Assembly (NCBI GenBank): GCA_902518985.1
Contig: CABYIF010000013.1
Location: 1-41,607, forward strand
Source of the DNA: an uncultured Alphaproteobacteria bacterium
GTDB lineage: Bacteria > Pseudomonadota > Alphaproteobacteria > HIMB59 > GCA-002718135
Direction: 5' to 3'
DNA length: 41,607 nucleotides
Shown: positions 6,508 to 41,607 of the stretch, in pieces
Layout: each line of letters starts with the position of its first letter
Numbering within the stretch: position 1 is the first letter of the stretch
Made by a program: the position numbers and the translations under genes
The notes under the pieces: model-generated
Seen by the model: the letters and a program-made list of their open reading frames with translations, nothing else
Told to the model about the DNA's origin: nothing
The model's database searches: none

Positions 6508-7757
6508 TTAAGGTCTTTCCTGACCATTTCCATCAACAACATATTTAAATGTTGTAAGATGTTTTGTTCCAACAGGCCCACGTACATGTATTTTATCAGT
6601 AGAAATTCCAATTTCTGCACCAAATCCAAACTCTCCACCATCAGCAAATTGAGTCGATGCGTTTTTTAAAATTATTGCACTATCGATTTTATTGTAAAAA
6701 TTTTTAAATGTTTCATTGTTATTTGTAATTATTGACTCTGTATGGCCAGAAGAATAATTATTTATATGATTTATTGCTTCTTCAACACCAGAAACAATTT
6801 TAACTGATAAAATTTTATCTAAGTATTCAAGTGACCAATCATTTTCATCAGCAATTTTAAAATTTTTATCTAAAGATTTTATAAATTCATCACCTCTTAT
6901 TTCACAATTTGCTTCTTTCAAAGGACTTAATATTCTCATAGACTTATCTTTAATACTACTATCTATTAAAAGTGTTTCAGCTGCGCCACAAATTTCAGGC
7001 CTTCTCATTTTACTATTAAAGACAACTTTTTCTGCAATATTTAAATCAGCATCTTTATCTATAAATACATGACAAATTCCGTCCAGATGTTTAATGACAG
7101 GAATTTTGCTTAAAGAATTAATTTTTTCAATAAGCCCTTTTCCTCCTCGTGGAATAACTACATCGATATAATTCTGCATACCAAGTAAATAATCTACTGC
7201 TTCTCTATCTGGAGTATCTATCATTTGAACACAATGATTTGGAAGTCCTGCTTCGTTAAAAGATTGAATTATATTTTTAACAAGTTCTTTAGAACTATGA
7301 AAGCTATCACTTCCTCCACGTAAAATAATACAGTTTCCAGACTTTATAGATAAACATGAAGCATCAATTGTTACATTTGGTCTGGACTCATAAATTACCC
7401 CTAATACCCCCAAAGGTGTAGATATTTTTCTAAATTTTAAACCATTAGGCCTTTCCCACTCTTCAAGTGTTAATCCAATTGGATCAGGTATACCAATTAT
7501 ATCTTCAATACTTACAATTAATCCTTCTATAGATTTATCAGTAAGAGTTAATCTGTTCATAAGAGGATTTGATAATGATTTTTTTTTACCATTTTCAAGA
7601 TCAACATTATTTGCCGCCAAAATTTTATCTTTGTTTTTTGAAATATTTTTGATTAAAAAAGAGAGAGCTGAATTTTTTTGATCATTACTACATAACTTCA
7701 TCTCAAAAGAGGCTTTCTTAGCTTTTTTACCCAGTTCTAAAATATTTTGTTTTATAC

Positions 7758-29653: not shown

Positions 29654-31093
29654 TTATTCACATACTACAGGATAAAAATTAAAATTCTGTTTATCCAAAT
29701 AATTAAAACGATTGGGTAAACGTTTTATAACTTTATCATAATTTTTTTTAGATATAGTGCTAGGCTTGCATCTAGCTGCAAACCACCATAGTGTAGTCTC
29801 AGCTGAATCTTCTTGATAAAATAGATCCCAGGCATATTCTGAAATATAGTATTTATCTTTTCCAATTGCTTTTTCCCACTCACCTTCATTTATCAATCCA
29901 CTATTCCAACGGAAATCAAGTGTAGCATGTGTTAATTCATGAAACATATTTTCCTCATTAAAATTGGATTTAGCACTATTAATATGAATGACAATTTGAC
30001 CATTACCACCAGCCCAGCCAACGTTACCTTTATGGACTATAATATATTTAAAATTTTCTTTTAAAAAATATGGCATTTGTCCATACATTTTTGCCCATTT
30101 TAATGCTTGTTTTTCAGCTTTTTCTTTTGTTTTGAATTCAGCATTTACTTTAATCAAAATATCCTGACTTTTTTCAAAAGAGGCATTAAAAATAAAAGCA
30201 TTAAAAACTTTCATTTCTATTCCATCCCCATATTGATTTTTATTTTTTGAAGTTCGTTTATCGTATTCCATAACTTCTTTTTCTTCTACAAATTCTAATG
30301 TCTTGAAAGTACTTACATCATTCTTTGTAATAATATCTTTATTAATCCAACTACTACCACCTTTAAAAATAAAATTTTTTATTTGTTTAATTAATTTTGC
30401 ACATTTATACCCATCAAACTCACACACTCTAATTGAGCCGTCCCAAGCTATAATTTCACCTTTACCCTGCAGTTTATTTTTTTTCCATGTGCCAAGCCAT
30501 ATTTCACCATCCTCAGCAAAAGTTAGCTCACCTTCTCCATGTAGTGAACCGTCTTTAAAATTACCTATATACTTATCTCCATCATTCCAAACGACTGTAC
30601 CATAACCATTTTCACAATTTCCTTCAATGCAACCTATTCCTTCTGCATACATTTCACCATTTTTCCACTCACCTTCATATGTGTCTCCATTCGTCCAAAC
30701 CATTGTTCCTTGTCCATGTTCTTCTCCATTTTCCCACTCACCTTCATATGTGTCTCCATTCGTCCAAACCATTGTTCCTTGTCCATTTTGACAATTTCCT
30801 TCAATGCAAGGGGTTTTTTCTTTCCAGACAATTTCTTTTCCAATTGCAAAGGACTGACATGTACCACTGATATTATTTACTGTTTGCCACTTTACACATT
30901 CATTTAAAGCACTTTCTTCATTATCGCCTGTTCCATATTCACATCTTCCATCGTTACCGATTACAACGTAGAAAAAATTATTTGGGTAATCTATTAAAAT
31001 TTCAGGATACGCCTCATCTGTTATCCATGAACATACTTCTTTCGAAACAGCATTATTAATTAAGTAAAAAAAATAATAAATAAAAAGATACAA
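29654..31093 (-). CDS. Secreted MORN-repeat protein with HExxH metallopeptidase-like C terminus
   Basis: Not a described family that I recognise. The 479-residue reading starts at TTG 31091-31093, giving a hydrophobic leader without basic residues. An alternative frame gives a better signal peptide (see findings). Residues ~20-95 form a Cys-containing domain with NNFFYVVIGNDGRCEYGTG, reminiscent of small secreted DUF4189-like domains. Residues ~98-225 hold about five MORN repeats (GTMVWTNGDTYEGEW type) with repeated CIEGNC spacers. The C-terminal domain has HELTH at residues 385-389 and EDSAE at 428-432, a zincin-like HExxH plus downstream Glu. It may be an envelope or extracellular zinc peptidase; activity and substrate are inferred. 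Neighbours give no clue. Confidence 0.65.
   Translation of the reverse strand: MYLFIYYFFYLINNAVSKEVCSWITDEAYPEILIDYPNNFFYVVIGNDGRCEYGTGDNEESALNECVKWQTVNNISGTCQSFAIGKEIVWKEKTPCIEGNCQNGQGTMVWTNGDTYEGEWENGEEHGQGTMVWTNGDTYEGEWKNGEMYAEGIGCIEGNCENGYGTVVWNDGDKYIGNFKDGSLHGEGELTFAEDGEIWLGTWKKNKLQGKGEIIAWDGSIRVCEFDGYKCAKLIKQIKNFIFKGGSSWINKDIITKNDVSTFKTLEFVEEKEVMEYDKRTSKNKNQYGDGIEMKVFNAFIFNASFEKSQDILIKVNAEFKTKEKAEKQALKWAKMYGQMPYFLKENFKYIIVHKGNVGWAGGNGQIVIHINSAKSNFNEENMFHELTHATLDFRWNSGLINEGEWEKAIGKDKYYISEYAWDLFYQEDSAETTLWWFAARCKPSTISKKNYDKVIKRLPNRFNYLDKQNFNFYPVVCE
30665..30786 (-). repeat. Tandem 69-base MORN repeat unit
   Basis: Bases 30665-30717 and 30734-30786 are identical over 53 bases at a 69-base offset (23 codons), encoding two copies of TMVWTNGDTYEGEW. 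A second, looser pair encoding CIEGNC spacers flanks them (around 30620 and 30795). Identity at the DNA level, including third positions, indicates recent duplication or gene conversion. Confidence 0.9.
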
Positions 31094-31315
31094 TTTTTTA
31101 ATTTTAGCATTTAAAATATATTTTACAAATTTATATAATTAAATAAATTCTACATAGAATTAATTTTTTTTCAATATCCTCTTCGTTTCTAGTAAATCAT
31201 CTTAATAATTTAAAGTCTTCTATTTTTAATATGTGTAATTTGCATAGCTGAAATACATTAATTATTCTTTATTTGCATATTAATTTAACTATGTAGAGAA
31301 TCGAAAGGCAAAAAA
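31094..31315. other. AT-rich intergenic stretch between divergent genes
   Basis: About 220 bases separating the MORN gene (-) from the small gene at 31316 (+). It contains ATG 31108-31110, which opens the alternative N-terminal frame of the MORN protein. Otherwise I see only AT-rich sequence; promoters for both directions must be here, but none matches the consensus well enough to name. Confidence 0.35.
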
Positions 31316-31495
31316 ATGTTAAATATATTCAAAATATTAAATCAAACTTATCAAGATTCGTTCTATAACAATTTTGATAATGTTGATCCTCAAATAGTAA
31401 GATATTTTAGGAACGAATTCGGAGCATCGTGGAAAGAAGCTCTTAACAATTACATAGAAGAAAGCAGATCAAATAATGATAAAAAAGCTGCTTAA
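31316..31495 (+). CDS. Small protein of unknown function (59 residues)
   Basis: Runs from ATG 31316-31318 to TAA 31493-31495, with a good ribosome-binding site (GAAAGG, 7 bases before the ATG). It starts MLNIFKILNQTYQDSFYNNF and continues with DPQIVRYFRNEFGASWKEAL, then a hydrophilic tail ending DKKAA. The middle is aromatic and predicted helical; there is no membrane segment or Cys. I do not recognise the family. The next small gene starts inside it in another frame (20-base overlap), implying translational coupling and a shared role. Confidence 0.62.
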   Translation: MLNIFKILNQTYQDSFYNNFDNVDPQIVRYFRNEFGASWKEALNNYIEESRSNNDKKAA

Positions 31496-31631
31496 AAACT
31501 TTTTAGATAATTATTTTAAATCACAAGTGAGAATTGAAGAGGATTACTTAAGTAAATCCGCTAATTTATATGATCTAGATTTTCGTCTTAAAAATATTGA
31601 TAAATTAAAAAATAATAAGATATTTCATTAA
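31476..31631 (+). CDS. Small DUF3563-like protein (51 residues)
   Basis: Runs from ATG 31476-31478 to TAA 31629-31631. It begins MIKKLLKNFLDNYF and contains EEDYLSKSANLYDLDFRLKN, which matches the YL..A.DL.DLE.R motif of the short DUF3563-type proteins of Proteobacteria, whose function is not established. It overlaps the preceding small gene by 20 bases in a different frame. Its stop is 19 bases from the convergent transporter gene. Amphipathic helices are likely. Assignment rests on one motif, so confidence is moderate. Confidence 0.55.
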   Translation: MIKKLLKNFLDNYFKSQVRIEEDYLSKSANLYDLDFRLKNIDKLKNNKIFH

Positions 31632-31650
31632 AATTATTATAAATTTTAAA

Positions 31651-32523
31651 TTACTTTTTATTCCTATTATTAATCGCAATTGATCCAGAGGAAATTATTA
31701 CAAATATTCCTACAATAGATAAAGCGCTGATTTTTTCAGAAAAGAAAATAATACCATATAAGGAGCCCCATAATATTTGTAAAAAAAGAAAGGGGCTTAT
31801 TATACTGCTATATTTGCCCGCAATGTAGTATGCGGTAGTTAAAGCCCAGCCTGAAATCATTACTATAATTCCTGAGCTGGCAAATAGTAAAAACTCTTTT
31901 CCTGAGGGAATCATTGGATCTGTTAAGAAAAATATATAAGAAAAAAGAGCAGCAGGAAGAAATCCGTAAAAAGTAAAACCATAAGTTGTGGCCATATATG
32001 AGTATTTGCTGACAACTGTAAAACTTAGAGCATTGGTTATTGCAACCAGTAAAACAAGAAATATATAAACATTAATACTATCGTTAGTAGGTCTTAAGAC
32101 CATTATAACCCCGACAAAACCTATTAATATAGAAACCCAACTTATAAGATTAAGTTTTTCATTCAAAATTAACTTTGCAAAAATTAACATAAAAAAAGGT
32201 GTTGTCATTAATAATGTTGTAAAAATATTTATAGGAACATACTTGAGTGAATAAAAGATTATTAGTGTAATAAAAGTAAATTGCAAACCTCTGATTAATG
32301 GTAAAATATAATATTGTTTCTTTTCTAATAAAATGTGTTTTTTAATTCCACCATTAAACTTTAAAAATATAAGTAAAATTATAAGAGCTATGGTTAAGCC
32401 TATAGAATAATAATGATACCATTTATAATCATTAATAGTTAAAAATTTAGTGATTGTATCAAAAGTAGATCCTGTAAATCCATTGAGACAAATAAAAAAA
32501 ATGCCTATTAATATTATTCTCAT
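31651..32523 (-). CDS. EamA-family (DMT superfamily) transporter
   Basis: A 290-residue inner-membrane protein with about ten hydrophobic helices in two EamA repeats, typical of drug/metabolite exporters and uptake systems. Family-like pieces are the first repeat's FTLIIFYSLKYVPINIFTTL and the second repeat's GSLYGIIFFSEKISALSIVG. It is the last gene of galE-galT-sufE-AKR-EamA and overlaps the reductase by 4 bases (ATGA). It might move a sugar, sugar acid or related metabolite, but DMT proteins have diverse substrates and none is proven. Confidence 0.85.
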   Translation of the reverse strand: MRIILIGIFFICLNGFTGSTFDTITKFLTINDYKWYHYYSIGLTIALIILLIFLKFNGGIKKHILLEKKQYYILPLIRGLQFTFITLIIFYSLKYVPINIFTTLLMTTPFFMLIFAKLILNEKLNLISWVSILIGFVGVIMVLRPTNDSINVYIFLVLLVAITNALSFTVVSKYSYMATTYGFTFYGFLPAALFSYIFFLTDPMIPSGKEFLLFASSGIIVMISGWALTTAYYIAGKYSSIISPFLFLQILWGSLYGIIFFSEKISALSIVGIFVIISSGSIAINNRNKK

Positions 32524-33503
32524 TTTTGGATATTTTTTAAATTGTTCCAGAATTCTCTATCAATTTTTATATTTAAATATTTTAAATTTTCTTTTATCTG
32601 ACTTATTTCATCCATGCCTAATATAATTGAAGATACATGCTTATTTTTCAATGGAAATTGAATAGATGCCGCTTGAATAGGTATGTTAAATTTCCTACAT
32701 AATTTGTCAATTTCAATAAATTTTTTTTTAGTTTTTGCAGGTATCGCCTTATAAAAGTATGTTGATTGTTTTAACCCTTTTGCAAGAATTCCAGAATTGA
32801 ATATACCAGCTAAAATAATACCAACATTTTTTTTTATTGCAGTTGAAAAAAATTTATCTTCTGCACTTGTGTCTAATAAAGTATATCTTCCTGCTAAGAG
32901 AACACAGTCAAATTGTTCGTTAGTTATAAATTTATTTGCCACCTCAGCATCATTTAATCCTAAACCTATAGCTTTAATTAGTTTTTCTTCCTTCAATTTT
33001 TGTAATGCAATATAAGCTCCTTTAAGTGATTGCTGAAAATAAAAATCAAATTTATTTTTATGTGTGAAATAGTCAACATCGTGTATTAGGCACAAATCAA
33101 TACGGCTAACACCTAATCTTTTTAATGATTGTTCAAAAGATCTCATTACACCATCATATGTGTAATCTATTACAGGTTTAAAATTTAAGCCTCCTTTAAA
33201 AATACCTCTGTCAATTTTATCTTTATCTTCTTTAACTAAGTATCTTCCTACTTTAGTTGATATTAAATATTCATTTCTCTTTAGAGACTTAAAAAAGACA
33301 CCCATTCTTTTTTCACTTAATCCATAACCGTATAGTGGAGAGGTGTCGTAAAAATTTATTTTATTTTTTTGTGACTCTTTAAGAATTTCTTGAGCCTGAT
33401 AATTATTTAATTTTTTGAATAGGTTTCCTATTGGAGCTCCACCAAAACCAATAACAGGAAGCTTTATGTTTGTTTTTCCCAATAATTTTTTTTTAATTTC
33501 CAA
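32520..33503 (-). CDS. Aldo/keto reductase, probable L-fucose (D-threo-aldose) 1-dehydrogenase
   Basis: A 327-residue NAD(P)-linked oxidoreductase of the aldo/keto reductase fold. The catalytic tetrad is visible: Asp and Tyr in NFYDTSPLYGYGLSEKR, Lys in STKVGR, His in CLIHDVD. FKGGLNFKPVIDYTYDGV and the overall pattern resemble D-threo-aldose/L-fucose dehydrogenases. It would oxidise L-fucose to the lactone, the first step of the pathway whose later enzymes lie on the plus strand from 36011. It overlaps EamA by 4 bases and follows sufE by 2. Related enzymes also act on D-arabinose, L-galactose or pyridoxal, so the substrate is inferred from context. Confidence 0.8.
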   Translation of the reverse strand: MEIKKKLLGKTNIKLPVIGFGGAPIGNLFKKLNNYQAQEILKESQKNKINFYDTSPLYGYGLSEKRMGVFFKSLKRNEYLISTKVGRYLVKEDKDKIDRGIFKGGLNFKPVIDYTYDGVMRSFEQSLKRLGVSRIDLCLIHDVDYFTHKNKFDFYFQQSLKGAYIALQKLKEEKLIKAIGLGLNDAEVANKFITNEQFDCVLLAGRYTLLDTSAEDKFFSTAIKKNVGIILAGIFNSGILAKGLKQSTYFYKAIPAKTKKKFIEIDKLCRKFNIPIQAASIQFPLKNKHVSSIILGMDEISQIKENLKYLNIKIDREFWNNLKNIQK

Positions 33504-33505
33504 GA

Positions 33506-33922
33506 CTATTTACTATAAGCAATAGCATACTCCTTAATTTTACTTAGCATTGAATTAACTCCATTTCTTCTACCTGGAGTTAACAATATATCCAAATCAA
33601 GTATTTTAAGCATCTCAAATTCTGAATTTTTAATTTCTTTTGGATTTCTGTTACCATAAATATCACACAAAATTGTTACCATTCCTTTGGAAATAAAAGC
33701 ATCTGAGTCATAATAAAAAGACAAAATATTTTCTTTATGTATTGGCACTAACCACACTTGAGCCTGACAACCAGATACCTTGAAAGTTTCATTTCTGTAC
33801 TCTTCTGGAAATTCTTTTGCATTTTTAGCTTGATCAATTAGAAATTTATATTTTTCCATTCCATCATCAAAAAGATCAAGTGAGTCTTTATAGTATTGAA
33901 TTTTTTCTTTTATCGTCATCAT
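33506..33922 (-). CDS. sufE: SufE-like cysteine desulfurase activator/sulfur acceptor
   Basis: Accepts persulfide sulfur from the desulfurase SufS for Fe-S cluster assembly. The 138-residue protein is a typical SufE: KYKFLIDQAKNAKEFP-like N-terminal helices, the active-site Cys in FKVSGCQAQVWLVP, and DILLTPGRRNGVNSML near the C terminus. It overlaps galT by 4 bases and precedes the aldo/keto reductase, so it is embedded in a sugar operon instead of next to sufS. L-fuconate dehydratase here is an enolase-superfamily Mg enzyme and does not need an Fe-S cluster, so the placement may be incidental. Confidence 0.92.
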   Translation of the reverse strand: MMTIKEKIQYYKDSLDLFDDGMEKYKFLIDQAKNAKEFPEEYRNETFKVSGCQAQVWLVPIHKENILSFYYDSDAFISKGMVTILCDIYGNRNPKEIKNSEFEMLKILDLDILLTPGRRNGVNSMLSKIKEYAIAYSK

Positions 33923-34968
33923 TGCATATATTCTCTTAAGATTTTGGATGACTCCTCTGGCAGAACATCCATTATAAATACTCCAGCCATTGATTCTGAT
34001 CCAGCTAAAATTTTTGGTTTGTCATTATGACGTAACGGAGGATAAAATTCTACATGAAAATGAAAATTATTATCATCTAGATTAGGAGATGCGTGCAGTC
34101 CCATTATATAAGGACATCTTTTATTTAAAAATCTGTCGTATCCACTAACTACTTTTTTTATTGCTTTTGCGAAAGACTCAATTTCTTCATCATTAAATTT
34201 CCAAGGACCAGGAACTTGTTTTCTAGGAATAATCCATACTTCATAAGCGTACCTAGCAAAAGGAGGTACGGCTACAATAAAATGATCATTTTGATAGACA
34301 TAGTATTTTTTTTCTAGGTCAGACATTATTTTTAATAAGAAATTTTCTTGATTAAATGCCTGAGCCTCAATTTTTATTGCTGGAGGTATAAAAGGATAAG
34401 CATATATTTGTCCATGAGGATGATGTAAGGTTACTCCACATTCTTGACCTCTATTTTCAAAAGGCATAATATATTTTACATTATCAATATTTTTTAGTTC
34501 ATTATATCTATCTATCCAAACATATATTAACAATTTAATTCTATCTAAATCCATCTCTGCAATAGTACTAGAGTGATCGGATGAATATACAACTACCTCA
34601 CACTCACCTTTTGATGGCTCTGTTTTTATATTTTCTAAATCAACACCTTCTCCATTTTGATTGAAGCTTGCCCATCTATTTGGAAAAACAGCTACTTCAA
34701 AATCTTTAAATGGTATTTCAGTTGGAAAATTTAAATTAGCGCCAGGACAAAGAGGACAATATTCCTTAGGAGGAAAAGAAGTTCTATCTTTTCTTTCGGC
34801 AGAATAAGTTACCCATTCTTGCCTTGATGGATTCCACCTCATATGTGGCTTGGGACCTTTTGTTATTTTAAGTTCTGTTCCAGATTCTTCAATATGTTCT
34901 TTGTAGCCAAATATTATTAACTGCTTATTATCATTACGTAAAAAATTTCTTTTAAATATTTTTTTCAT
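33919..34968 (-). CDS. galT: Galactose-1-phosphate uridylyltransferase
   Basis: Exchanges UMP between UDP-glucose and galactose-1-phosphate (Leloir pathway). The 349-residue HIT-superfamily protein has the metal-binding CPLC pair near residue 72, the HxH nucleophile region LHHPHGQIYAYPFIP, and a C-terminal FHFHVEFYPP. It overlaps galE by 17 bases and sufE by 4. galK and galM are not in the window, so either a kinase lies elsewhere or GalT/GalE mainly serve UDP-sugar interconversion. Confidence 0.94.
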   Translation of the reverse strand: MKKIFKRNFLRNDNKQLIIFGYKEHIEESGTELKITKGPKPHMRWNPSRQEWVTYSAERKDRTSFPPKEYCPLCPGANLNFPTEIPFKDFEVAVFPNRWASFNQNGEGVDLENIKTEPSKGECEVVVYSSDHSSTIAEMDLDRIKLLIYVWIDRYNELKNIDNVKYIMPFENRGQECGVTLHHPHGQIYAYPFIPPAIKIEAQAFNQENFLLKIMSDLEKKYYVYQNDHFIVAVPPFARYAYEVWIIPRKQVPGPWKFNDEEIESFAKAIKKVVSGYDRFLNKRCPYIMGLHASPNLDDNNFHFHVEFYPPLRHNDKPKILAGSESMAGVFIMDVLPEESSKILREYMQ

Positions 34969-35932
34969 TTAGTTTCTTTTCCCATTCAATGGATGAGCTA
35001 ATTATTTCTTCTAAATTATTATATTTAGGTTCCCAATTAATATATTTTTTTATTTTTGATATATCTGAAACAAGTTTTTCAACATCTCCATCACGTCTCT
35101 TGGAAAATTTGTGATGAATGGCTCCATTACATAATTTATTTGCGGCATTAACAACATCTAAAACTGAAAAACCAATTCCATAACCACAATTAAATATATT
35201 TGATTCATTATTTTTTACTAAATGTTTAGCAACCTCTACATGTATTTCTGCTAAGTCACTAACATGTATATAGTCTCTAACCGCAGTTCCATCAGGCGTG
35301 TTATAATCATTACCGAAAATTTCAATTTTATTTCTTTTTCCAACTGCAACTTCACTAAGAATTTTTATCAAATGAGTTGATGTCTTTGATATTTGACCAG
35401 CTCTCAAAAGTTTATCTGCTCCAGCTACATTAAAATATCTCAAGATGATACTCTTAATTTCTTTATAATTTTCAATTAGATATTGCTCAGTTTTAACTTT
35501 TGATTCTGCATATGGGTTTTGAGGATTTAAATTATCTTTTTCTGATATTAAATCATTATTTGAGGACCCGTAGCCTGAGGCTGTTGACGAAAATATAATT
35601 TTATTTAAATTATTTTTTTTACAAGTTTCAAAAAGTTTAATTGCATTTTCAGTATTGTTTTCAAAATATTTTGCCGGCAATCTAACTGACTCTTCGACTT
35701 GAATAAAACCAGCAAAATGCATTAGTACATCAAATTTTTCATTATTAATAATTTTCTCTATTTTATGTACATCGTTAATATTGCATTTTGTAAAATTAAC
35801 TTCTGGAGGAATTAGTTCTGAGTTACCAGTTGAAAGGTTATCAATTATATGAATATTATGGCCTTTTTCAATTAACGATAATACTACATTGCTTCCAATG
35901 TAACCGGCACCACCTGTAAGAAGGATATTCAC
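34952..35932 (-). CDS. galE: UDP-glucose 4-epimerase
   Basis: Interconverts UDP-glucose and UDP-galactose with bound NAD. The 326-residue extended short-chain dehydrogenase has the N-terminal Rossmann motif LLTGGAGYIGSN, catalytic Ser/Thr region FSSTASGYG, the YxxxK motif NPYAESK, and the substrate region LRYFNVAGAD. It is the first gene of the minus-strand sugar transcript and is divergent from the fucose-acid genes, with 78 bases between them. It could supply UDP-galactose for surface polysaccharide as well as galactose catabolism. Confidence 0.95.
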   Translation of the reverse strand: MNILLTGGAGYIGSNVVLSLIEKGHNIHIIDNLSTGNSELIPPEVNFTKCNINDVHKIEKIINNEKFDVLMHFAGFIQVEESVRLPAKYFENNTENAIKLFETCKKNNLNKIIFSSTASGYGSSNNDLISEKDNLNPQNPYAESKVKTEQYLIENYKEIKSIILRYFNVAGADKLLRAGQISKTSTHLIKILSEVAVGKRNKIEIFGNDYNTPDGTAVRDYIHVSDLAEIHVEVAKHLVKNNESNIFNCGYGIGFSVLDVVNAANKLCNGAIHHKFSKRRDGDVEKLVSDISKIKKYINWEPKYNNLEEIISSSIEWEKKLNEKNI

Positions 35933-36010
35933 AATTATAATTTAAATTATATTACAAATAATTACTAAGAAAAAATTGATACATTCATCTTTCAAGTTTA
36001 AAAGAACTTA

Positions 36011-36871
36011 ATGTCTCAAAAAGTAATCGACAGTCACTTTCATATCTGGGATTTAAAAAATGATTATCCCTGGTTAAAAAATTTAAAGTCATTTTCTCTC
36101 AATTCTAACTATCAAATAAGTGACTATATTGCTGACTTCAGTGAGATTAATGTAATAAAAACGGTTCATATTCAGGCAGAGATAACAAAGGAAAAACGTG
36201 TTTATGAAACTCAATGGTTACAAGATATTGCTGATCAAAATGATCAGGGCTTCCCAAATGCCATAATTGGTTATGTTGATTTTAGTGATGATAAGATCGA
36301 AGAAGACTTGGAAAGACATTGCCAATATAAAAATTTTAGAGGAATAAGACAAATATTAAAAACAAAAATAAATGATAATACAGATTTGTTAATAAATTCT
36401 AAATGGTTTAAAAATCTAGAACTATTAAACAAATTCAATCTAAGTTTTGATTTATTGATAATGTTTCACCAATTTGATAAAGCATTTAACGTTATAAAAA
36501 AATATCCAAATACACTTTTTATAATAAATCACTGTTTATGGCCTGAGGGAACTGAAAAGAGTCTCCATGATTGGAAAAAAGCACTAAAAAAAATATCTAC
36601 ATTAGATAACGTCGTTATTAAGATTTCAGGATTTGGAGAATGGTTGGTACCTTGTAATGTTGAAAATATAAAAGGTTATGTATTAGAAGCAATTGATAAT
36701 TTTGGTATCAATAGATGTATGTTTGGAAGTAATTTTCCAGTTGATAAACATTTTTCAAAAAAATCGTTCAAATTTTTTTGGAATTCATATTTTGAAATAA
36801 CAAAAAAACTTTCACAAAATGAAAAAAATAAAATTTTTTTTCTTAATGCTGAAAAATATTACAATATTTAA
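36011..36871 (+). CDS. Amidohydrolase-family lactonase, probable L-fuconolactonase
   Basis: A 286-residue cytoplasmic hydrolase of the amidohydrolase_2 family. The N terminus has VIDSHFHIWDL (metal-type HxH), with the sugar-lactonase-type YPWL following; later segments are VHIQAEI, RGIRQIL, FIINHCLWP and MFGSNFPVD with the catalytic Asp. Family members open L-fucono- and L-rhamnono-lactones. It starts the fucose-acid operon, 3 bases before L-fuconate dehydratase, so it most likely hydrolyses L-fucono-lactone to L-fuconate. Confidence 0.86.
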   Translation: MSQKVIDSHFHIWDLKNDYPWLKNLKSFSLNSNYQISDYIADFSEINVIKTVHIQAEITKEKRVYETQWLQDIADQNDQGFPNAIIGYVDFSDDKIEEDLERHCQYKNFRGIRQILKTKINDNTDLLINSKWFKNLELLNKFNLSFDLLIMFHQFDKAFNVIKKYPNTLFIINHCLWPEGTEKSLHDWKKALKKISTLDNVVIKISGFGEWLVPCNVENIKGYVLEAIDNFGINRCMFGSNFPVDKHFSKKSFKFFWNSYFEITKKLSQNEKNKIFFLNAEKYYNI

Positions 36872-36873
36872 CT

Positions 36874-38169
36874 ATGACAAAAATAATTAGTATAAGCGTC
36901 TCAGATATTAGATTTCCAACTTCAAAAGATTTAACCGGATCTGATGCAATTCACACCGATCCTGATTACTCTGCTCCATATGTAGTGATTGAGACAGATG
37001 ATCCTTCTTTAGTTGGATATGGAATTAATTTTACATTGGGTAAAGGTAATGAGATTGTAACAAAATGCATTCAATGTTTTTTTCCGATTATTAAAAATCT
37101 ATCTCTTGATGAAGTGGAAAACAATATAGGTGGTTTGTGGAGTGAATGTGTTGATCACAGTCAACTTAGATGGCTAGGTCCTGAAAAAGGTGTTGTTCAT
37201 CTTGCTGTTTCTGCTTTATTTAATGCATTATGGGACTTAATTTCAAAAAAAAATAAAAAACCACTATGGCGATATGTTGTTGATACAAACCCTAAAAAAA
37301 TAATTGATTGGCTACCATTTAAACATGTTGATGATGCTCTAAGTAAAAACGAAGCTTTAGAGATTTTGACCAAAAGCCAAGAATACAAAAATGATAGAAT
37401 AAAAAAATTAGAAAGTGAGGGCTACCCCTCTTATACTACAGCAGCAGGTTGGTTAGGTTATTCTGATGATAAGATTGTTGATTTATGTAAAGAATATATG
37501 GCTAATGGTTGGAAATATTTTAAAATAAAAGTAGGTAAAAATTTTGAGAGAGACTCGCATCGACTTGATATTATAAGAAAAACAATTGGTAACAATAATT
37601 ATTTAATGATTGATGCTAATCAACAATGGAGTGTCGATGAGTCTATAAAATATATTAATGCTTTTAATAAGTATGATGTTTTTTTTGTAGAGGAACCAAC
37701 TCATGCAGATGATATATTGGGATTTATTAAAATTAAGAAAAATGTTGGTGAAGTTAAACTTGCAACAGGAGAAGCTTGCTCGAACAGAGTAATGTTTAAA
37801 CAATTTTTACAATCTGGGGCCATGAATATATGTCAAATTGATAGTTGTAGATTAGCTAGTATTAATGAAATTTTAATAGTCATGCTTATGGCACATAAAT
37901 TCAATGTTCCAGTTTTTCCACATGCTGGTGGAGTTGGGCTATGCGAGTATGTACAACATTTATGTATGATAGATTATGCACTAATAAATGGAGAAAAAGA
38001 TAATAAAGTGGTTGAGTATCAAGATAGCTTACATAATCATTTTAAATTTCCATGCAGAATTGTAAAAGGTAATTATATACCTCCTAAAGATCATGGATAT
38101 TCTATTGAAATGAAAGAAAAGTCTGTTATTGAGTTCTCTTACCCCAACGGAAACTATTGGAAAAGTTAA
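36874..38169 (+). CDS. L-fuconate dehydratase
   Basis: Removes water from L-fuconate to give 2-keto-3-deoxy-L-fuconate. It is an enolase-superfamily enzyme of 431 residues. Near-family-specific blocks are SDIRFPTSKDLTGSDA, DPDYSAPYVVIETD, DSQLRWLGPEKG-like HSQLRWLGPEKG, and TTAAGWLGYSDDK. The catalytic KxK is in YFKIKVGKN, metal ligands are in MIDANQQW, FVEEPTHADD and ATGEACSNR, and the catalytic His is in FPHAGGVGLCEYVQHL. The C terminus IEFSYPNGNYW is also typical. This is the most secure assignment of the pathway and fixes the substrate as fuconate and not rhamnonate. Confidence 0.93.
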   Translation: MTKIISISVSDIRFPTSKDLTGSDAIHTDPDYSAPYVVIETDDPSLVGYGINFTLGKGNEIVTKCIQCFFPIIKNLSLDEVENNIGGLWSECVDHSQLRWLGPEKGVVHLAVSALFNALWDLISKKNKKPLWRYVVDTNPKKIIDWLPFKHVDDALSKNEALEILTKSQEYKNDRIKKLESEGYPSYTTAAGWLGYSDDKIVDLCKEYMANGWKYFKIKVGKNFERDSHRLDIIRKTIGNNNYLMIDANQQWSVDESIKYINAFNKYDVFFVEEPTHADDILGFIKIKKNVGEVKLATGEACSNRVMFKQFLQSGAMNICQIDSCRLASINEILIVMLMAHKFNVPVFPHAGGVGLCEYVQHLCMIDYALINGEKDNKVVEYQDSLHNHFKFPCRIVKGNYIPPKDHGYSIEMKEKSVIEFSYPNGNYWKS

Positions 38170-38170
38170 A

Positions 38171-38908
38171 ATGAGATTAAAAGATAAAAAAATAATTGTA
38201 ACAGCAGCAGCACAAGGAATTGGTAGAGCAACTGCTATAAAGTTTGCAAATGAAGGAGCCTCAATTATTGCTACAGATATTAATGAAGAAAAGCTATTAG
38301 ACTTAGAAAAAGAACATCCAAATATCAAGACTCAAAAACTTGATGCTTCTGATAAAAATGCAGTTGAAAAATTTTGTGCATCTATAAATAACGTTGATGT
38401 ACTTTTTCACGCAGTTGGATTTGTGCATCATGGGACTCTCATGGACTGTGATGATAAAGAATTTTATAGATCGATTAATGTTAATGTATATTCAGCTTAT
38501 TTGATGAGTTACAACTTAGTGCCAAAAATGTTAGATAATGGCAAAGGAAACATAATAATTGTCTCTTCGGCTGCTTCAAATGTCAAAGGAGCTCCTAATC
38601 GATTAATATATGGAACAACAAAAGCAGCTCTTAATGGTTTTGTAAAAGCACTTGCTATAGATTATGTCAAAAAAGGAATACGATGTAATGCTATACTTCC
38701 TGGAACGGTAGAAACCCCTTCTTGGGAAGGTAGAGTTAATGTGGCTGATGATCCAAAGAAAGCTAGAGAAGATTTTATTGCTCGACAAGCTATGGGAAGG
38801 CTTGGGCAACCTGAAGAAATTGCTTCTCTTGCTACTTACCTAGCTAGTGACGAATCAGATTTTGTTACAGGAACGCTAAACCTAATTGATGGAGGGTGGA
38901 CTTTATAA
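38171..38908 (+). CDS. SDR dehydrogenase, probable 2-keto-3-deoxy-L-fuconate dehydrogenase
   Basis: A 245-residue classical short-chain dehydrogenase. Features are the cofactor motif VTAAAQGIGRATA, a Ser in IVSSAASNVKG, YGTTKAAL (YxxxK), and a C-terminal VTGTLNLIDGGWTL. By position between L-fuconate dehydratase and the FAH hydrolase it should oxidise 2-keto-3-deoxy-L-fuconate to the 2,4-diketo acid. The start used is ATG 38171, one base after the dehydratase stop, placing the cofactor loop at the usual distance. An in-frame TTG at 38129 would add 14 residues encoded inside the dehydratase and is unlikely. Confidence 0.88.
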   Translation: MRLKDKKIIVTAAAQGIGRATAIKFANEGASIIATDINEEKLLDLEKEHPNIKTQKLDASDKNAVEKFCASINNVDVLFHAVGFVHHGTLMDCDDKEFYRSINVNVYSAYLMSYNLVPKMLDNGKGNIIIVSSAASNVKGAPNRLIYGTTKAALNGFVKALAIDYVKKGIRCNAILPGTVETPSWEGRVNVADDPKKAREDFIARQAMGRLGQPEEIASLATYLASDESDFVTGTLNLIDGGWTL

Positions 38909-39756
38909 TGAAAATATTAAGATATAGAATTGGTGACAAAGTAAAACCGGGAATTCTAGATCAAGAAAATAAAATTCGTGATGCATCTAGTTTGGTAAAT
39001 GATTGGGATAGTGAAAATGTCACAATAGAAAAATTAAATTCTGTTAAACAAATTGAAGTTAACTCACTGCCTATCGTCGAAGATAATAATGGAATTGCTC
39101 CGTGTGTATGCAAAAAAAGTGTAGGTAAGTTTATTTGCATTGGCTTAAATTATTCTGATCATGCTGAAGAAACAGGACTAAAAGTTCCTTCAGAGCCAAT
39201 AATATTTTCAAAAGCAACTAGTGCAATCATTGGTCCTAATGATAATGTAGAAATCCCTAGAAAATCAGTAAAATCTGATTGGGAAGTAGAACTTGGAGTG
39301 GTTATAGGAAAAGAAGCAAAATATATTTCTGAAGATCAATCCCAATCTCATATTGCTGGATATTGTGTTGTAAATGATCTTAGTGAAAGAGAGTTTCAAA
39401 TTGAACATTCAGGTCAATGGGTGAAAGGTAAATCTTGTGATACTTTTGGACCAATTGGACCATATTTAGTAACAACTGATGAAATAGTAGATCCACAAAA
39501 CTTAAAAATGTGGCTTGATGTTAATGGCAAAAGAATGCAAGATGGCTCAACTAGTACTATGGTTTATGGAGTAAACTTTTTGATAAGTTATTTGAGTCAA
39601 TTTATGTCTTTACAGCCTGGCGATATTATTTCTACTGGTACGCCCCCTGGTGTAGGAATGGGAATGAACCCACAAGTATTTTTAAAACCTGGCGATGAAA
39701 TACAACTTGGTATTGATGGTTTAGGACAACAAAAACAAAATGTAATTTCAGGATAA
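38908..39756 (+). CDS. FAH-family hydrolase, probable 2,4-diketo-3-deoxy-L-fuconate hydrolase
   Basis: Fumarylacetoacetate-hydrolase-fold metalloenzyme of 282 residues. The metal and catalytic region is conserved: FICIGLNYSDHAEE, DWEVELGVVIG with paired Glu, VNDLSEREFQ with Asp, GKSCDTFGPIGP, and TGTPPGVGMG. Context predicts cleavage of the 2,4-diketo-3-deoxy acid to pyruvate and L-lactate, as in the non-phosphorylative L-fucose pathway. The start is the ATG in TAATG overlapping the SDR stop, with GGAGGG about 12 bases upstream; an earlier in-frame GTG at 38896 is rejected. Its own stop overlaps the lactate dehydrogenase start in the same way. Confidence 0.9.
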   Translation: MKILRYRIGDKVKPGILDQENKIRDASSLVNDWDSENVTIEKLNSVKQIEVNSLPIVEDNNGIAPCVCKKSVGKFICIGLNYSDHAEETGLKVPSEPIIFSKATSAIIGPNDNVEIPRKSVKSDWEVELGVVIGKEAKYISEDQSQSHIAGYCVVNDLSEREFQIEHSGQWVKGKSCDTFGPIGPYLVTTDEIVDPQNLKMWLDVNGKRMQDGSTSTMVYGVNFLISYLSQFMSLQPGDIISTGTPPGVGMGMNPQVFLKPGDEIQLGIDGLGQQKQNVISG

Positions 39757-40910
39757 TGTTTAATTCAATTAGTAAATGTAGAAATACTGAAGACTTTCGA
39801 AAACTTGCAAAAAAAAGATTACCAGGTCCAATCTTTCACTATATCGATGGAGCAGCAGATGATGAAGTAACATACAGAAGAAACACAGAGTCATTTGAGC
39901 AATGTGATTTAGTTCCAAATGTTTTAGCCGGTGTAGAAGATATAGACATGTCTACAACAGTTATGGGTAAAAAAATTGATATGCCTCTATATTTTGCTCC
40001 GACTGCTTTACAAAGATTATTTCATCACGATGGTGAATTAGCAGTTGGTAAAACAGCGCAAAAGTTTGGAACAATGTTTGGAATTTCTTCACTAGGAACA
40101 ACAAGTATTGAGGATATTGCAAAGCATGTATCAACTCCTAAATTATTTCAACTTTATGTTCATCGTGACAAAGGGTTAACAAATAGTATGTTGGACAGAT
40201 GCAAGGATGCAAAATTTGATGGATTAGCTTTAACCGTAGACACGATTGTTGGAGGAAACAGAGAAAGAGATTTATTAACTGGTTTTACCTCACCACCAAA
40301 ACTAACTTTAAATAGTTTAATAAGTTTTGCAATGCACCCTAATTGGGCTTTTAATCACTTTACGCATTCAAGATTTGAGCTTCATCAAATAAAACACTGG
40401 ATTAGAGAAGGAAATAAAATATCACTTTCTATTCATGATTATTTTACGAAGATGCTTGACCAATCTATGGATTGGAAAGCGGCAGAAGAAATTCGTAAAT
40501 ATTGGGGGGGCGAATTTGCCCTTAAAGGGATAATGTCAGTAGAAGATGCAAAGAGAGCAATAGACATAGGAGCTTCAACAATAATGATATCAAATCATGG
40601 AGGAAGACAGTTAGATGGATCAAGATCTCCATTTGACCAACTTGCTGAAATAGTTGATGCTGTGGGCGATAAAATTGATGTAATTTGTGAAGGTGGTATT
40701 AGACGAGGAACGCATGTTCTAAAAGCACTATCTTTAGGCGCAAAAGCTTGTTCAGGGGGGAGAATGTATCTTTATGCCCTTGCTGCTGGGGGTCAAAAAG
40801 GTGTTGAAAAAGCCATGAGTAATATGAAAAATGAAATTGAAAGAGATATGAAGCTTATGGGAGTAAAAAATATAAGTGAATTATCAAGAAAAAATCTTAG
40901 ATTCAGATAA
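39756..40910 (+). CDS. lldD: FMN-dependent L-lactate dehydrogenase
   Basis: Membrane-associated alpha-hydroxyacid oxidoreductase that oxidises L-lactate to pyruvate and passes electrons to quinone. The 384-residue TIM-barrel protein has the N-terminal LPGPIFHYIDGAADDEVTY, the FMN-binding APTALQRL region, the LYVHRD strand, the Lys of FALKGI, the catalytic-base region SNHGGRQLDGSRSPFDQL, and the phosphate-binding EGGIRRGTHVLKAL. Related family members oxidise glycolate or mandelate. As last enzyme after a hydrolase that yields L-lactate, lactate is the logical substrate. It starts in a TAATG overlap with the FAH gene. Confidence 0.9.
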   Translation: MFNSISKCRNTEDFRKLAKKRLPGPIFHYIDGAADDEVTYRRNTESFEQCDLVPNVLAGVEDIDMSTTVMGKKIDMPLYFAPTALQRLFHHDGELAVGKTAQKFGTMFGISSLGTTSIEDIAKHVSTPKLFQLYVHRDKGLTNSMLDRCKDAKFDGLALTVDTIVGGNRERDLLTGFTSPPKLTLNSLISFAMHPNWAFNHFTHSRFELHQIKHWIREGNKISLSIHDYFTKMLDQSMDWKAAEEIRKYWGGEFALKGIMSVEDAKRAIDIGASTIMISNHGGRQLDGSRSPFDQLAEIVDAVGDKIDVICEGGIRRGTHVLKALSLGAKACSGGRMYLYALAAGGQKGVEKAMSNMKNEIERDMKLMGVKNISELSRKNLRFR

Positions 40911-40970
40911 ATTCACAAATTTTTAAAAAAAATTATTTATTCTCACTTAATTTTATTCTAAAAATTTTTT

Positions 40971-41291
40971 ATGAATGATGAAATTGAACCTATTTTAGTT
41001 GGTGACACTGATGACATTGAAATAGGCAGTGTTGAAAATTTTGAATATGAAGATAATAATTTTGCAATATTCAGGTTAGAGTCAGGTTTTTTTTCAACAC
41101 AAGGAAATTGTAATTGTGAAGAAAGAGCTCCTTTGAGTGAGGCTGAGATAGAAGATGAAGAACTTGAATGTGTTAGTTGTGGAAATACATATAGTATTGT
41201 ATCAGGTGATTGTATAAGTGAGCCAGAGCTAGATGGATTAAAAATTTTTGATATCTCTGAAGAAGATGGAAGTATTTACCTTAGCCTTTAA
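40971..41291 (+). CDS. Rieske-ferredoxin-like protein with all-cysteine ligand set
   Basis: A 106-residue, strongly acidic cytoplasmic protein. The fold pattern is that of small Rieske ferredoxins (FAIFRLESGFFST before the first ligands, APLSEAEI after them, YSIVSGDCISEP after the second pair). Instead of CxH and CxxH it has C47-x-C49 and C67-x2-C70 with the Rieske spacing of 17 residues between pairs; a fifth Cys is at 81. It could hold a Cys4-ligated [2Fe-2S] cluster, a single iron or zinc. It follows lldD by 60 bases and may carry electrons for the operon, but that is speculation. Its stop shares TTAA with the convergent gene. Confidence 0.75.
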   Translation: MNDEIEPILVGDTDDIEIGSVENFEYEDNNFAIFRLESGFFSTQGNCNCEERAPLSEAEIEDEELECVSCGNTYSIVSGDCISEPELDGLKIFDISEEDGSIYLSL

Positions 41292-41607
41292 AATTTTAAT
41301 TCATTGATATTAATAATATTACTTTTATTTAAATCGCTTTTATTTTTTAAAAAAAAAGCAACATTTTTACATGACTCGATAGACATTCTTTTTCTACACT
41401 CAATTGTTAAAGCGGAATTGTGTGGTGTTAGCAAAATATTATTTAGAGTAAAAAATTTGCTATTTTCTGAAGGCGGTTCTTTCTCAAAAACATCCAATCC
41501 AGCTGCAAAAATGTTCTTATTAAACAAAGCTTCATAGAGTGCATTTTCATTAACAATACCTCCCCTTGCTGTGTTTATTAAAATCAAATTTTTTTTAAAC
41601 ATACTGA
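41288..41607 (-). CDS. D-isomer-specific 2-hydroxyacid dehydrogenase (C-terminal part, cut by window edge)
   Basis: The frame stays open to the window edge, so only the last ~106 residues are visible. They contain the end of the NAD-binding domain, LINTARGGIVNENALYEAL, then GLDVFEKEPP and the catalytic-His region LLTPHNSAL, which are diagnostic for the D-2-hydroxyacid dehydrogenase family (phosphoglycerate, lactate, hydroxypyruvate and related enzymes). The subfamily cannot be set from this part. The visible end lacks any ACT domain, arguing against a long-form SerA. Confidence 0.88.
   Translation of the reverse strand, partial: SMFKKNLILINTARGGIVNENALYEALFNKNIFAAGLDVFEKEPPSENSKFFTLNNILLTPHNSALTIECRKRMSIESCKNVAFFLKNKSDLNKSNIININELKF

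Follow-up and report, generated by a model that had tools for sequence, protein, structure and literature searches.

A short gene at the end of a sugar-acid operon raises the question of whether a Rieske-type ferredoxin can exchange both of its histidine ligands for cysteine and, if it can, what the resulting site would bind and what it would be for. The gene occupies positions 40971-41291 on the forward strand of the window, the 41,607-nt stretch of alphaproteobacterial DNA analysed here, and is an open frame of 106 codons running from ATG to TAA. Its product, which we call RSK4, is a Cys4 Rieske-fold protein of 106 residues with a pI of 4.05, and the window copy contains no histidine. The Pfam Rieske profile PF00355 matches it at E=3.7e-6 with 27.2 bits, above the curated cut-off of 20.3, and is found at E<=0.1 in 25/25 aligned orthologues (best 1.7e-7). 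By sequence, the closest solved chains are the Rieske ferredoxins CarAc (E=1e-8 when searched with the RSK4 family profile) and BphF. The NCBIfam models for HcaC, NirD and MocE score 35-37 bits, each far under its own cut-off; for NirD (TIGR02378) the values are 36.7 versus 74.65 bits, and for MocE (TIGR02377) 35.6 versus 136.15 bits, which places RSK4 outside both families.

Aligned to the solved Rieske ferredoxins, the two cysteine pairs of RSK4 fall over the CxH and CxxH ligand motifs: C47-x-C49 (codons at 41109-41117, forward strand) stands in the place of CxH, and C67-x2-C70 (41169-41180, forward strand) in that of CxxH. The register of C49 leans on C47 and C67/C70 as anchors, the printed alignments putting a gap within or beside loop 1 (one residue in the alignment with CarAc). 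Seventeen residues separate the two pairs, the same number as in BphF (1fqt), with 16 in CarAc and in the canonical paralogue described below; the spacing is thus within the family range, in agreement with the original prediction. In 50/50 distinct RSK4 proteins the motifs read CxC ... CxxC, neither the CxH ... CxxH of a two-cysteine, two-histidine Rieske site nor, given the CxC of loop 1, the CxxC ... CxxC knuckles of a rubredoxin. Because the Rieske ligand set is lacking, we file RSK4 as a Rieske-fold variant and not as a Rieske [2Fe-2S] protein.

An AlphaFold2 model of RSK4, with an alignment of 25 orthologues as input, reached a mean pLDDT of 89 and a pTM of 0.76. The best Foldseek rows for this model were Rieske ferredoxins (E of 6e-8 and weaker, TM about 0.86). 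VIA-align superposed it on the naphthalene dioxygenase ferredoxin 2qpz with a Z of 17.7 and an rmsd of 1.7 over 101 residues, and on other Rieske ferredoxins with rmsd values of 1.3-1.9 A. A model of the canonical paralogue made from a single sequence had a pLDDT of 69 and was left out of the structure comparison. Together with the alignment, the predicted fold places the four cysteines of RSK4 in the two cluster loops. It had been proposed from the DNA letters that the protein follows the Rieske ferredoxin pattern with both histidine ligands replaced, and structure prediction had been named as a check; PF00355, the alignment and the predicted fold all agree with that proposal, the model being a Rieske ferredoxin in which the four cysteines are predicted to lie within the ligand loops.

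Cysteine occupies all four places in 87/87 orthologous loci (several of which are one genome in two collections), and the four columns are invariant in the 50 distinct proteins obtained from 94 copies. The four ligand codons are TGT or TGC in 61/61 distinct coding sequences, which excludes an assembly or sequencing error, and the earlier argument that no single sequencing error could be responsible holds for the same codons, since a change from histidine (CAY) to cysteine (TGY) takes two base changes. The dN/dS ratio has a median of 0.06 and a range of 0 to 0.35 (328 pairs, dS 0.1-1.0): RSK4 has been kept under purifying selection since its origin. The window does come from a fragmented assembly, of 54 contigs and 69.6% completeness, and one could picture an assembly artefact or a decaying pseudogene that is losing its ligands, but given the recurring codons, the low dN/dS and a conserved gene order and 5' element, we regard this as extremely improbable.

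No histidine column is invariant in RSK4, the richest reaching 28/50 distinct proteins, and the other two cysteine columns, 42 and 81, carry cysteine in only 20/50 and 23/50. In one rival reading, working RSK4 would be free of metal and act as a dithiol/disulfide couple, or as a structural or regulatory subunit like the NirD-type Rieske folds. The NirD-type proteins 3c0d, 4aiv and 2jo6 are indeed among the close folds of the RSK4 model (Z 14.9-16.3), and the Rieske-type ferredoxin ThnA3 can regulate gene expression, according to the part of the report available to us (PMC3771892). We nevertheless consider a metal-free protein unlikely, as loss of the metal would normally allow the ligand positions to drift, and it is precisely these four cysteines that are invariant while the other two columns vary. 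The protein is also strongly acidic, with a median charge of -25.3 over 94 copies. In the 25-sequence alignment, ten acidic positions never vary, and seven of them (D15, E22, E25, E63, E64, E66 and D80) are constant in 50/50 distinct proteins. Conserved acidic residues fit electrostatic docking, and acidity of this strength suits an electron carrier or a docking protein; the canonical paralogues are acidic too.

How widespread is the Cys4 form? RSK4 orthologues were found in 86 of the 110 genomes of the window's family and in 0/52 of the sister family (162 genomes of the order searched, many of them, like the window's own, incomplete), and those found share 57-100% identity. Every relative read outside the window's family has CxH/CxxH (43/43; 24 loci from the phylum, 14 from the class and five from the sister family); L159, for example, reads CTH...CPMH and L121 CTH...CPLH, and the five sister-family proteins are 21-26% identical to RSK4. 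The homologue search that had been suggested as a second check found cysteine at all four places in every orthologue read, and histidine in the more distant canonical relatives. The broader searches ran as follows. A class-wide search with a single sequence (385 genomes, E<=1e-12) gave matches in four genomes, two of the window's own family and two others. A class-wide profile search (372 genomes, E<=1e-7) gave matches in 16, G000 and G078 from the family of the window among them, and the 14 loci read from it were all CxH/CxxH, none of them Cys4. A phylum-wide profile search (398 genomes, E<=1e-6) gave matches in 23, including the window's own genome, with no Cys4 in the 24 loci read. Viral contigs scanned with the RSK4 family alignment held 38 stretches with the pattern, of which 0 encode a relative. 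Cys4 proteins may still occur elsewhere, in unsampled genomes or among matches under these thresholds.

A tree built from 66 sequences groups the Cys4 proteins in one clade (support 100/100) on a stem of 2.05 changes per column; with few columns and so long a stem, the point at which this clade attaches among the canonical ferredoxins is not fixed. A single Cys4 clade with canonical relatives outside it implies that both histidine-to-cysteine changes apparently happened once, before the family radiated, and the all-cysteine metal site of this Rieske fold thus appears, from these sequences, to have a single origin at the base of the window's family. A second relative, 31-35% identical to RSK4, is frequent in the genomes that carry RSK4. 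The five copies read (L088, L089, L096, L097 and L099) are canonical, with CTH...CPMH, and the L088 copy (6634-6951 of its locus) scores 137.8 bits against the MocE model TIGR02377, just over the cut-off of 136.15. In L088 (4360-6951) this MocE-type ferredoxin follows a desaturase-like and a ferredoxin-reductase-like gene, both of which score below their own cut-offs.

In the window, RSK4 is the last of six genes on the forward strand, in the order fuconolactonase-like, sugar-acid dehydratase, SDR, FAH, lldD, RSK4. The first (36011-36871) encodes an amidohydrolase-2 protein, a probable L-fuconolactonase (NF052480, 94 bits, below the cut-off of 400), and the second (36874-38169) a sugar-acid dehydratase of the enolase superfamily, which we infer to be probably L-fuconate dehydratase (PF13378, E=7e-49). 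The SDR (38171-38908, its start taken as the first inner ATG) is by position and family a probable 2-keto-3-deoxy-L-fuconate 4-dehydrogenase, and the FAH-family hydrolase (38908-39756) is of the diketo-deoxy-sugar-acid type (NF053535, 386 bits, below the cut-off of 500). An LldD-type FMN-dependent alpha-hydroxyacid dehydrogenase (39756-40910; PF01070, E=1e-129) follows, its gene overlapping that of FAH by one base. A D-2-hydroxyacid dehydrogenase gene, truncated by the end of the window, converges on RSK4 from downstream. The end products of the non-phosphorylating L-fucose route are pyruvate and L-lactate, and the operon reads as this route, in line with the earlier claim that the Cys4 protein sits in a fucose/lactate gene cluster. 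The SDR step of the route has been described (PMC11199699, seen in part), as has a fucose operon in the AEGEAN169 group 'Ca. Indicimonas' (PMC11366302); the words Rieske and ferredoxin are absent from the portion of the latter text available to us. The available portion of PMC10308909 has 'rhamnose' once and none of 'fuco', lactate, Rieske, inositol or rhizopine. A SufE-domain gene (33506-33922, reverse strand) lies between an aldo/keto reductase gene and galT/galE, and SufE, galT and galE stay beside the SDR-FAH-lldD-RSK4 genes in many relatives.

Which of these enzymes could be the partner of RSK4? By Pfam, the window operon holds no oxygenase and no ferredoxin reductase, and LldD, the sole non-NAD redox enzyme recognised in it, is the first candidate. 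The original prediction asked whether the Cys4 protein is tied to lldD. As far as gene order goes it is, with lldD directly 5' of RSK4 in 84/86 genomes and FAH within 3 kb in 84/86. In G008 RSK4 lies at a contig end with the upstream gene out of view, and in G003 the contig stops inside lldD, leaving FAH out of view. The tie is, however, not exclusive. In G103 (L090, 1247-2493) the order is SDR-FAH-RSK4, with RSK4 and its 5' element kept directly after FAH and no lldD at the locus (0 matches in the genome at E<=1e-40), so LldD cannot be the sole partner. Conversely, RSK4 is missing from 31 sister-family genomes that do carry an lldD orthologue, and the sister-family genome G118 has SDR, FAH and lldD and no RSK4. 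G010 and G107 also show FAH without RSK4, in each case at the end of a contig. In G109 (L107), a member of the window's family that is 93% complete, the locus consists of galE, lldD and the hydroxyacid dehydrogenase gene; SDR, FAH and RSK4 are missing from it, and the genome has no RSK4 match at E<=0.01. This locus is a natural deletion counterpart. G103, G109 and the 31 sister-family genomes rule out LldD as an exclusive partner, and with few exceptions the pattern of co-occurrence indicates that RSK4 goes with the lower fucose pathway as a whole and not with LldD alone.

The history of lldD also seems to be partly its own. The window and G092 share 93% identity in LldD but 68% in RSK4; with the LldD of most relatives, the window LldD shares about 73%, so that the same FAH gene is followed by either of two LldD types. 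This mismatch, out of step with the RSK4 tree, suggests that lldD was exchanged between lineages independently of RSK4. Two further ideas about LldD were tried and rejected. A replacement by Lut enzymes for L-lactate oxidation in G103 found no support, with PF02589 in 0/8 genomes searched, G103 included; and LldD does not stand out as a basic docking partner, its median pI being 8.68 in the presence of RSK4 (n=92) and 8.31-8.97 in its absence (n=6), with no clear difference.

A conserved 60-nt element (40911-40970, forward strand) fills the space between lldD and RSK4. The gap is exactly 60 nt in 52/62 loci, and the core of the element consists of an A-run, the box ATTTATTCT, about 8 nt, the box TTATTYTA and then about 10 nt before the ATG. 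It is recognisable in diverged RSK4 members and at the locus that lacks lldD. Over 45 nt its identity to the window is 0.69-0.91 (16 comparisons), exceeding that of the coding DNA in 13/16, values that the high AT content of the element inflates; at the lldD-less locus L090 the element reaches 0.87 against 0.68 for coding DNA, and the whole stretch matches there too. The window has a single occurrence of the two-box pattern, against 0.08 expected from Markov simulations, and 57 loci together have 58. Fifty of these occurrences are before RSK4 (50/57 loci), and the remaining eight, in a looser form, lie ahead of the SDR in the galE-SDR intergenic stretch of eight loci, so RSK4 is not the only gene that the pattern precedes. 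We rejected the idea of a general promoter or regulon signal, given the single occurrence in the window and the 50/58 before RSK4. Weaker matches to the whole 60-nt stretch number 33-45 per genome at E<=10 in these AT-rich genomes, and of seven that were inspected by eye none was clearly the start of a gene preceded by the two boxes. A search for sigma-70-type promoters gave none within the element, and Rfam had no match in 30000-41607. The element is possibly a promoter or control site.

What, then, do the four cysteines bind? In the reading that we consider the most likely, although we would put it a little short of an even chance, RSK4 is a low-potential [2Fe-2S](Cys)4 electron carrier with a Rieske fold and a single origin. 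A Rieske-type ferredoxin would have exchanged both histidine ligands for cysteine a single time, at the base of the window's family; the four thiolates would bind a [2Fe-2S] cluster arranged as in other Rieske proteins, with two cysteines per iron; and the potential would be well below that of a Rieske centre, without proton-coupled chemistry. Every copy read has retained, with the CxC of loop 1, the spacing of a Rieske site. We take this as mild evidence for this reading, as we do the Rieske asymmetry of the ligands (+2 in loop 1, +3 in loop 2) kept in 50/50 distinct proteins. The solved relatives nearest to RSK4 are electron-transfer ferredoxins, and the relatives read outside the family keep canonical CxH/CxxH, both of which favour a carrier. 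Work on an archaeal Rieske ferredoxin from Sulfolobus (ARF), seen by us in part, cuts both ways (PMC2946596). Its H64C variant has a low-potential [2Fe-2S] cluster with three cysteines and one histidine, in support of a low potential for RSK4; Rieske [2Fe-2S] potentials range from about -150 to +400 mV (PMC11138216, seen in part). Against a [2Fe-2S] cluster, H44C prevented cluster insertion or assembly in ARF, and the double variant H44C/H64C, with the same CxC/CxxC arrangement as RSK4, was largely impaired in assembly (PMC2946596, same portion).

The poor assembly of that double variant also speaks for a site with one metal, zinc or iron, held by the four cysteines as in a rubredoxin or zinc ribbon, which we judge possible and nearly as likely as the [2Fe-2S] cluster; the original prediction had named zinc or iron alone as an alternative. 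RSK4 would then have abandoned [2Fe-2S] electron transfer and could serve as an acidic adaptor stabilised by zinc, as a rubredoxin-like carrier or as a redox switch that uses zinc. Profiles for zinc ribbons do match the family weakly, Trm112p in 13/25 and the LysW-like ribbon in 11/25 members (best E 0.004-0.005), and gave zero matches at E<=0.01 to the one canonical paralogue tested. These matches count to some degree against [2Fe-2S]; they are weak and probably rest on the common ECxxCG knuckle. The window RSK4 scores 13.5 bits against the Trm112p cut-off of 22, and the LysW-like profile does not list it at E up to 0.1. Apart from LldD, we recognised no redox partner in the operon, which speaks for a mononuclear site. 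An analogy with Hsp33 is weakened by its fold, which differs from the Rieske fold. Conserved CxC and CxxC motifs are present in Hsp33, which binds zinc (PMC7423844, seen in part). Rieske cluster loops resemble those of rubredoxins and zinc ribbons, and a mononuclear Fe(Cys)4 site has been built into ARF in the variant H44I/K45C/H64C (PMC2946596, as above). That design, however, required CxxC in loop 1, whereas RSK4 keeps CxC in 50/50 distinct proteins. The ribbon matches, the ARF failure and the Hsp33 motifs together leave a mononuclear site close behind.

Returning to the [2Fe-2S](Cys)4 carrier, its role would be that of a small acidic one-electron carrier in lower L-fucose catabolism, where pyruvate and L-lactate arise. 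The absence of an oxygenase or ferredoxin reductase from the window operon argues against a carrier, the more so as the canonical paralogue of L088 follows a reductase-like gene; so do the retention of RSK4 without LldD in G103 and the existence of lldD without RSK4. We state with slightly more reserve the full proposal, that an all-cysteine Rieske ferredoxin under selection was recruited to L-fucose/lactate catabolism, where it would carry electrons at low potential and without proton coupling. Open surface waters are often poor in iron. Should the site hold zinc or a single iron, RSK4 would represent a natural transition, in bacteria of such waters, in which an iron-sulfur protein came to have a rubredoxin- or ribbon-like site. 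With either outcome, a fucose operon that is conserved in this uncultured marine group gains a part.

Among known systems, RSK4 is most like the dioxygenase ferredoxins CarAc (1vck), BphF (1fqt) and 2qpz in fold (Z about 17, rmsd 1.4-1.9), length and ligand-loop spacing, and differs from them in having cysteine for both histidine ligands and in that the window operon has neither an oxygenase nor a ferredoxin reductase. Members of the MocE family (TIGR02377), including the L088 paralogue, are of similar length, also acidic and about 31-35% identical to RSK4, but have CTH/CPMH where it has CxC/CxxC. With the NirD-type small subunits RSK4 has the Rieske fold in common, its score being under the NirD cut-off. 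Rubredoxins and zinc ribbons (LysW, Trm112) likewise have four thiolates on two knuckles, with an ECxxCG in loop 2 as in RSK4, which in contrast has CxC and not CxxC in loop 1, a Rieske fold and weak matches to their profiles. Our literature searches, to which the claim is limited, found no natural Cys4 Rieske protein. The closest counterpart is thus man-made: ARF H44C/H64C has the same ligand replacements in a Rieske scaffold, while those of RSK4 are natural and conserved. The ARF mutagenesis asked whether a Rieske scaffold can hold a four-thiolate cluster, and for the double change the answer, in the portion of the report available to us, was largely no (PMC2946596); that failure makes a conserved natural case worth testing. 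A natural Cys4 clade permits a direct comparison of the second-shell and loop changes that allow four cysteines, and of the potential that results.
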